From a virus, in the IMG/VR virus record IMGVR_UViG_3300030389_004597, positions 1 through 21,215 of that record: a DNA stretch of 21,215 nt; one strand, 5' to 3'. The translations under genes and the position numbers were made by a program. The stretch's first letter is position 1; every line of letters starts with the position of its first letter. Under the pieces are notes generated by a model. It did no database searches. It saw only the letters and a program-made list of their open reading frames with translations, and was not told where the DNA came from. Positions 19,121 to 20,545 of this stretch are shown here, one piece after another.

Positions 19121-19560
19121 TGATTTATTCATTCAAGAACCAATACCCAAAACCTCTTCCTGACAAAATCCGATTATCGAATGGCAGCTTACGCACAGAT
19201 CGGTCGTCTTTTACAAATGCCGAAATAGCGGACGCTGGTTATGTCTTAATAGCAGAGCCAGAATATGACTTGGGCACTGAAAAACTAGAGTGGAACGGAA
19301 CAACCCTTACTGTTGTTTCCTTGACCGAGAAAGAGTTACAAGCTTTTACAGATGAAGCCTGGAAGGAAGTAAGGTCAGTCCGTGATTCAATTTTACAAAA
19401 TTTTGAATGGCGAATATCGAGATATTTGAGCGAAACACGTCAGGGAATAAATCCAACAACAGATAACATTGCAGAGCTAGACGCATATGCACAAGCGTTG
19501 CGTGACATAACTAAGCAAGCAGACCCAAGTACGATTACATGGCCTATTGAACCGGTTTAA
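19120..19560 (+). CDS. Candidate tail fibre assembly chaperone
   Basis: A 146-residue protein. The C-terminal half has the pattern of phage tail assembly chaperones of the type placed after fibre genes: 'VRSVRDSILQNFEWRISRY', a variable stretch, then 'LDAYAQALRDITKQ' and 'TITWPIEP' at the end. The N-terminal half (about 1-75) is a small beta part starting IYSFKNQYPKPLPD, perhaps contacting the fibre client. Such proteins help fibres trimerise or attach and are usually absent from the virion. It lies directly after the last fibre-type gene and overlaps both neighbours by 1 nt (TAATG), which fits a helper made in step with them. Confidence 0.75.
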   Translation: MIYSFKNQYPKPLPDKIRLSNGSLRTDRSSFTNAEIADAGYVLIAEPEYDLGTEKLEWNGTTLTVVSLTEKELQAFTDEAWKEVRSVRDSILQNFEWRISRYLSETRQGINPTTDNIAELDAYAQALRDITKQADPSTITWPIEPV

Positions 19561-19751
19561 TGCAAAGACCTGATCCCCTAATTTCAGGGTGCCCTGGAGC
19601 GGAAGATGTTGTGGCCGAGCGCAACAAGGCAGCATGGCTCGATGCTTTGTACTTTCTAGATGGCAGAGACCTGCTGTCTCATCCTCAACACGGTTTATTT
19701 ACCGGCTTGGCCATTAAGTACGCCAACATTGACTCGACAGACGGTTATTGA
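19560..19751 (+). CDS. Small hypothetical protein
   Basis: A 63-residue soluble protein: 'DPLISGCPGAEDVVAERN' followed by a helical part 'KAAWLDALYFLDGRD', then 'HPQHGLFTGLAIKYANID'. No signal peptide, membrane helix or catalytic motif can be seen and no family is recognised. It begins in a TAATG overlap with the chaperone-like gene and is the last member of the coupled + strand run, so it is probably expressed with the tail genes. An 88-nt gap follows. Confidence 0.65.
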   Translation: MQRPDPLISGCPGAEDVVAERNKAAWLDALYFLDGRDLLSHPQHGLFTGLAIKYANIDSTDGY

Positions 19752-19839
19752 TGGTCTGCCGACACAGTGACACACTCCAACAACTGGCACAGTAACAGCT
19801 CTAGTAGTCTGTCAAAGGAAAACGTTAATCCTCTTCCAA
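19752..19839 (+). other. Short intergenic gap before the Lom-like gene
   Basis: The 88-nt gap has no credible gene or terminator. AAAGGAAAA lies about 18-20 nt upstream of the ATG, too far for an ordinary ribosome binding site. A weak promoter for the following gene could lie here, but no good -35/-10 pair was found. Confidence 0.3.
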
Positions 19840-20199
19840 ATGATCAAGTCTCTAATTGTGAGTGGTGCCGTCGCTATAGCCAGTGCGCTGGCATCTCCTG
19901 CATCCATCGCCGGCAACATATTTTTCAACCCGGAATATAATGCCGGATTTTCGGGAGCCAAATTTGTCGGAAGCTCACTAGAGGCTCACGTAGGATTTCA
20001 AGAAGGTCCTTTTTACATTCAAGCTGGACCGGCTCTGTCTAATGATGGATCGGACTCTGAATGGGGTTTCTCTGGCAAAACCGGCGTCTCTGCTTCTGTA
20101 AGCGACAGCCTGAGCCTTTACACAGAAGTTGGTTATGCAAAGTTTGAGGACGTTGACGCTGCTTATGCAATCAAGCTAGGTGGCAAATACGCATTTTGA
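19840..20199 (+). CDS. Secreted small outer-membrane beta-barrel-like protein (Lom-like position)
   Basis: A 119-residue protein with a clear Sec signal peptide (IKSLIVSGAVAIASALASPA), probable cleavage after A24 (SIA|G), and a mature part of about 95 residues made of alternating amphipathic strands ('SSLEAHVGFQEGPFYIQA', 'WGFSGKTGVSASVSDS', 'LSLYTEVGYAKF', 'AYAIKLGGKYAF'). It ends in Phe, the residue the Bam machinery recognises at the end of outer-membrane barrels. At this length it could form only a small barrel or one that oligomerises. Lambda carries the OmpX/Ail-type gene lom just after J; this gene closes the tail region similarly. A role in altering the host surface or excluding other phages is inference. 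No good ribosome binding site is seen. Confidence 0.8.
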   Translation: MIKSLIVSGAVAIASALASPASIAGNIFFNPEYNAGFSGAKFVGSSLEAHVGFQEGPFYIQAGPALSNDGSDSEWGFSGKTGVSASVSDSLSLYTEVGYAKFEDVDAAYAIKLGGKYAF

Positions 20200-20229
20200 G
20201 CTAGCCTAAGCAAGTTGATGCGTAGCCTG

Positions 20230-20266
20230 CCCTCTCTTGGTGCTCACACAGCAAGAGAGGGTTTTT
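20230..20266 (+). terminator. Intrinsic terminator after the Lom-like gene
   Basis: A perfect 10-bp stem CCCTCTCTTG / CAAGAGAGGG with a 12-nt loop is followed by five T residues, 30 nt after the beta-barrel gene stop. It closes the long + strand tail transcript. Confidence 0.93.
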
Positions 20267-20311: not shown

Positions 20312-20545
20312 ATGCAAAAGGTTTTTAATGCTTTGTCCCTAGTGTCCTTCTGCATTTCAGCGGGGCTTCTGGGAAGTTCAATCATGATCTATTCAAGATT
20401 GCCAGGCATGATCACTCGCTGGTCTGAAAGCGTAACCGGCAACGTGACAGGAAAGGTTACTGAGATGCTTCCTGAGCAGATTGAGGAAGTAATGCCTGAG
20501 TTGCCAACAATGACCGGTCCTGCCATCCCTTTTAAAATGCCTTGA
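20312..20545 (+). CDS. Small membrane protein with one N-terminal helix
   Basis: A 77-residue protein with one hydrophobic helix (about residues 5-27, 'LSLVSFCISAGLLGSSIMIY') followed by a basic residue and an exposed tail with 'SESVTGNVTGKVTEMLPEQ', then a Pro/Met/Glu-rich segment 'EEVMPELPTMTGPAIPF'. It resembles small membrane proteins common in cyanophage genomes that have no proven function. A holin or spanin role is possible given the size and topology, but there is no second helix, no lipobox, and no endolysin gene nearby in the window. It lies between a + strand terminator and the convergent minus genes, so it should have its own promoter; none is convincing. Confidence 0.65.
   Translation: MQKVFNALSLVSFCISAGLLGSSIMIYSRLPGMITRWSESVTGNVTGKVTEMLPEQIEEVMPELPTMTGPAIPFKMP

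Follow-up and report, generated by a model that had tools for sequence, protein, structure and literature searches.

The window, by which we mean the whole stretch of DNA analysed (a virus record of 21,215 bases without a close DNA match among phage records), encodes a 119-residue protein that, judging from its sequence and from structure models, very probably resides in the outer membrane as a barrel, and in relatives of this protein the mature barrel is exchanged behind a constant leader and signal peptide. The family itself, PF24653, is already known in Pfam; it is the exchange that is new here. The initial annotation had proposed an exported outer-membrane barrel of the phage, smaller than the OmpX type, and the computations support this proposal. 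The features concerned are collected in Table 1.

Table 1. Features at the PF24653 locus (positions in the window)
Feature	Position	Strand	Basis
Gene of the probable outer-membrane barrel protein (PF24653), 119 aa	19840..20199	+	ATG start, TGA stop; profile matches, AlphaFold2, dN/dS
Putative Sec signal peptide MIKSLIVSGAVAIASALASPASIA, residues 1-24	19840..19911	+	Read from sequence
Mature part, six predicted strands and beta-signal KLGGKYAF at the C-terminus	19912..20196	+	AlphaFold2, alternation/beta-signal test
Conserved non-coding leader	19752..19839	+	No indels, 92% mean column identity, 16 contigs
Terminator hairpin followed by TTTTT, directly 3' of the gene	20229..20262 (with T run to 20267)	+	-22.4 kcal/mol, z -3.2
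p63, 63-aa protein, usual upstream neighbour	19560..19751	+	In 63/76 contigs
p77, 77-aa protein, usual downstream neighbour	20312..20545	+	phrog_568; in 66/76 contigs

The reading frame is a genuine gene, since its dN/dS against close relatives is about 0.05-0.09. Residues 1-119 of its product align with positions 1-122 of the PF24653 profile ('Cyanophage outer membrane protein like beta barrel domain', Phage_OMP; E = 1.4e-21, 77.4 bits against a cut-off of 27), phrog_417 is matched as well (E = 2.8e-19), and all 36 of the 36 relatives examined match PF24653. The last 59 residues match the autotransporter barrel domain TIGR01414 (2.3e-5, 23.6 bits, cut-off 16), although only model positions 376-432 of 432 are covered and, unlike in an autotransporter, there is no passenger. 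A search for the family in other cyanophages, proposed in the initial annotation, returned relatives in many of them: 394 phage records, named as Synechococcus, Prochlorococcus, cyanophage, marine or uncultured phages, and 516 IMG/VR stretches, with no match in 14 control genomes. One match lies in a Bacteroidota MAG (L043), which we read as a binned viral contig because p63 and p77 are also present. Among solved structures no sequence relatives were found, the three listed matches (E ~1.5) being short chance matches.

With the other members the window protein shares its length, signal peptide, strand pattern, C-terminal F and cyanophage origin, but it is only 26-49% identical to ten aligned members and differs in its siphovirus tail-end setting and in the exchange of its mature part while the signal peptide stays the same. 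Protein length is near constant in the family, whole proteins measuring 113-125 residues; in ADD95009.1 (L044:7779-8279), annotated with 166 residues, the family part begins at about residue 54, so that its start codon was probably placed too far upstream. The family also goes by the names phrog_417, cyanophage 'DUF680' and PhCOG173, and S-TIM4 ORF224, S-SZBM1_90 and Syn19_210 ('DUF680' in GenBank) belong to it. Cyanophage proteins annotated as 'DUF680' (L045:3926-4303, L125:11633-11992 and L126:5051-5419) match PF24653, a DUF680 model did not come up for proteins so annotated at E <= 1, and the name appears to be wrong for them. S-PM2d169, a phosphate-induced gene of similar size, does not match the family and was rejected as a relative.

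A Sec signal, amphipathic strands, a terminal Phe and about 95 mature residues had all been claimed for this protein, and these claims have held up. Residues 1-24 read as a Sec signal peptide with likely cleavage after A24, its MIKSLIVSG leader is common to 21 distinct relatives, and the mature length of about 95 residues is constant in the family. Six strands are predicted (residues 26-38, 41-55, 58-68, 73-86, 91-102 and 105-117), and over 69 relatives their outward/inward difference in hydrophobicity stood out against within-strand shuffles (p = 0.0011), in a test for which we chose strand limits and register of alternation manually, guided by the sequence and by the first model, and whose shuffles were also allowed their own best register. 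With the exception of the C-terminal F, all 14 near-invariant strand residues of these 69 relatives lie on the polar face, and the opposite face is hydrophobic and more variable. The C-terminus takes the form polar-x-G-x-x-hydrophobic-x-aromatic in 69/69 relatives, each of which ends in F.

Structure prediction, which had been put forward as a check, gave six strands and, as the nearest folds, mostly membrane barrels at non-significant E-values. AlphaFold2 with 73 sequences reached a pLDDT of 84.8 and a pTM of 0.69, the 10-residue blocks from residue 31 onward scoring 89-95, and a first run with 36 sequences likewise produced six strands at a pLDDT of 74.7 (52-62 in the other four models). When the 73-sequence model was compared by Foldseek, the closest solved folds were mostly outer-membrane barrels, with every E-value non-significant: OmpX was the top match (E = 0.036, TM 0.54), and OprF (TM 0.64), a designed membrane barrel (TM 0.61, 2.7 A) and Ail were among the others. 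With about 32 effective sequences, covariation agreed with the predicted hairpins to within one residue in the best antiparallel register of each of the five pairs of adjacent strands, but scores as high were reached by several pairs that are not adjacent and by parallel registers, and the pair of strands 1 and 6 does not stand out.

The first, shallower model had halves of soluble GFP-like barrels as its top fold matches, and this, together with Foldseek E-values that are weak throughout, would be compatible with a secreted soluble protein instead of a membrane barrel. We consider a soluble protein most improbable, as a soluble barrel would show the opposite of the polar invariant core and hydrophobic variable exterior seen here, the beta-signal is found in 69/69 relatives, the better model shifts to membrane barrels, and several outer-membrane profiles match individual members of the family. 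The eight-stranded barrels OmpX, OmpA and OprF, which are the nearest solved folds and have the polar core in common with the window protein, possess two more strands, and to our knowledge no membrane barrel has fewer than eight. A possible precedent is offered by YadA-type trimeric membrane anchors, in which short chains jointly build one barrel; the YadA_anchor profile is weakly matched by one PF24653 member (E = 0.1). The YadA anchor has four strands per chain, whereas the window protein has six and lacks a stalk or coiled coil. The suggestion of a new small barrel class is weaker than it was put: the family is not new because Pfam already contains it, though we found no solved example of its predicted six-strand architecture.

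Four mature classes, 35-51% identical in protein, all follow the common leader and MIKSLIVSG signal peptide. Among related contigs, leader, signal peptide and flanks are near identical and another allele, of about 60-70% identity, takes the place of the mature barrel. In the pair picked as the clearest (L027:5800-7800 compared with L034:1350-3350; in most of the compared pairs whose upstream DNA is similar, similarity is lower downstream), identity is 96% over some 200 bases upstream, 100% in the signal, 69% in the mature part and 100% over at least 1.4 kb downstream, and identity drops immediately past the signal peptide and recovers at the stop codon. A second strongly divergent region of this pair (~60%), situated beside conserved DNA about 700-1000 bases upstream, is the end of the fibre gene. 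Across the gene, one flank correlates with the other in a set of 15 contigs (rho 0.53, p 0.001), while neither flank correlates with the mature part. Since exchange of genes between similar flanks, or mosaicism, is common in phages, the exchange as such is ordinary; what is notable is that its limits are sharp and that leader and signal are spared. Coupling of the mature allele to the tail-fibre allele was rejected, no link having been seen in a comparison of little power in which the fibres are mostly unalignable.

The leader was rejected as coding sequence, as its variable columns carry no codon-position bias. It contains a 19-bp palindrome, AACTGTCACAGTGACAGTT, that is perfect in five contigs (L008, L027, L031, L034 and L038), degenerate in the window (19782-19800) and possibly a regulatory site. 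No sigma-70-type promoter was found on the gene's strand at the leader, and Pho-box control was rejected for the window phage, no Pho box being found near the gene. The terminator is retained in most aligned relatives, in several of which the stem is re-formed by other bases. The conserved leader and own terminator therefore make the gene a moron-like unit, its own promoter not being recognised on its strand.

The remainder of the window carries the genes of a lambda-like siphovirus tail, namely a tape measure, a JAB/NlpC tip protein, J, two fibres with S74 chaperone and a tail-fibre-assembly-like protein, and the closest J is that of cyanophage MED4-117 (33% over half of the J length); the setting is therefore that of a cyanophage siphovirus. 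The 27.9 kb of MED4-117 that were covered hold no PF24653 relative, and no defence family and no credible RNA family was matched. The gene order runs from J through a series of fibre-type genes and the tail-fibre-assembly-like gene to the PF24653 gene, near the end of the + strand operon. Lambda lom sits between J and the side fibre, so that the 'lom position' of the initial annotation is right in approximation, the gene following the fibre genes in the siphovirus clade, but not in the sense of lying between J and the side fibre. Nor is such a position conserved: the gene usually stands between p63 and p77 in siphovirus-type contigs, adjoins psbA or a capsid gene in podoviruses, and in T4-like phages adjoins nrdC or, as two tandem copies, precedes pstS. 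The lom-like place is thus a feature of the window's siphovirus clade and not of the family. Lambda Lom, of the Lom/Ail family, is also a small phage-encoded outer-membrane barrel near tail genes, and Ail is among the fold matches, but kinship with Lom found no backing: the Ail/Lom profile gave no match at E <= 1 with the window protein or at E <= 0.1 with 36 members, and both AlphaFold2 models have six strands in place of the eight of Lom.

The late position in the window and the small hydrophobic neighbour p77, present in 66/76 contigs, would suit a role in aiding lysis by weakening the outer membrane late in infection, perhaps together with p77. Such a role is very unlikely, given that none of the window's genes was recognised as a lysis gene, that T4-like copies lie among nrdC, psbA and other takeover genes, and that p77 matches phrog_568 and not a holin or spanin family. 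The p77 protein has a hydrophobic N-terminal stretch, its phrog is one called 'plasmid stability' by name, and its relatives number 262 cyanophage records.

Among several options, our best hypothesis for the function, and one that quite possibly holds, is that the protein remodels or masks the surface of the infected cell. After export by Sec and cleavage after A24, the host's outer-membrane insertion machinery would recognise the C-terminal beta-signal, and the six strands would insert with their hydrophobic faces toward the lipid. The polar, near-invariant faces (E32, N34, Q61, K80, Y94, E96, K112, K116 and glycines) would meet in the core, and three acidic-rich loops would be exposed on the outside of the cell. 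The protein may thereby remodel the infected cell's surface: a receptor might, for instance, be masked or crowded, which would keep other phages or freed progeny from binding. A change of surface or resistance to superinfection is plausible. The gene would form a module that brings its own leader and terminator, and the exposed mature part would be exchanged between phages. We count the exchange of the mature part between near-identical flanks for a surface role; counting against it, selection within one allele class is strongly purifying and the loops show no sign of fast change.

The literature on relatives, in whose consulted passages (PMC6224464, PMC9146016 and PMC3686209) no description as outer-membrane barrels was found, bears on this role and on two others. 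When S-TIM4 evolved alone on Synechococcus WH8102, its gene of this family gained 13 mutations, many of them disruptive, with a summed frequency of about 100%, and its function was lost; the authors speculated on a fitness cost on WH8102 under the growth conditions used (PMC6224464). We count this loss for the surface role as well, since it fits a gene that is dispensable in the absence of a rival phage. It fits equally a pore or uptake aid in the outer membrane for phosphate or another scarce nutrient, in which several six-stranded subunits would form the channel, and the same text suggests that PhCOG173 responds to phosphate limitation, its function being lost in replete medium (PMC6224464). 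A DUF680 cluster, assignable to a sequence family by name only, is over-represented at BATS, as is PstS (PMC3686209). In S-SCSM1, two divergent tandem copies lie directly before pstS (L046:3932-4860), which are possibly partners in one barrel. We nevertheless regard a nutrient pore as rather unlikely: neither a Pho box near the gene nor a phosphate gene occurs in the window, pstS is near only 4/80 S-TIM4-type copies (loci with short flanks), and the charged and aromatic conserved core of a single six-strand chain would leave little room for a channel.

Detection of S-SZBM1_90, a confirmed member, by two peptides in CsCl-purified particles (PMC9146016) and the place of the window gene at the end of the tail operon would agree with a virion component, such as a tail-associated barrel for adsorption or DNA entry. 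This too is quite improbable, as the S-TIM4 copy was called nonstructural in a particle mass spectrometry study (PMC6224464), signal peptide and insertion signal indicate a membrane, fragments of which can co-purify, and in other phages the gene lies among metabolic and not tail genes.

A fuller reading, which we put forward tentatively and consider doubtful as a whole, is that of a natural family of transmembrane barrels with six strands per chain, either closed mini-barrels or oligomeric pores, in which the leader and signal peptide stay fixed and the exported part is swapped behind them like a cassette; cyanophages would in this way vary the surface of infected marine cyanobacteria. The family is found in hundreds of cyanophages and has hitherto been filed as a DUF or a phosphate-response gene. 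To see in it an outer-membrane protein of six strands whose mature part can be swapped would link its name, its loss in experimental evolution and its disputed detection in virions, and may bear on the minimum size of a natural membrane barrel and on whether marine viruses rebuild the surface of their host during infection.
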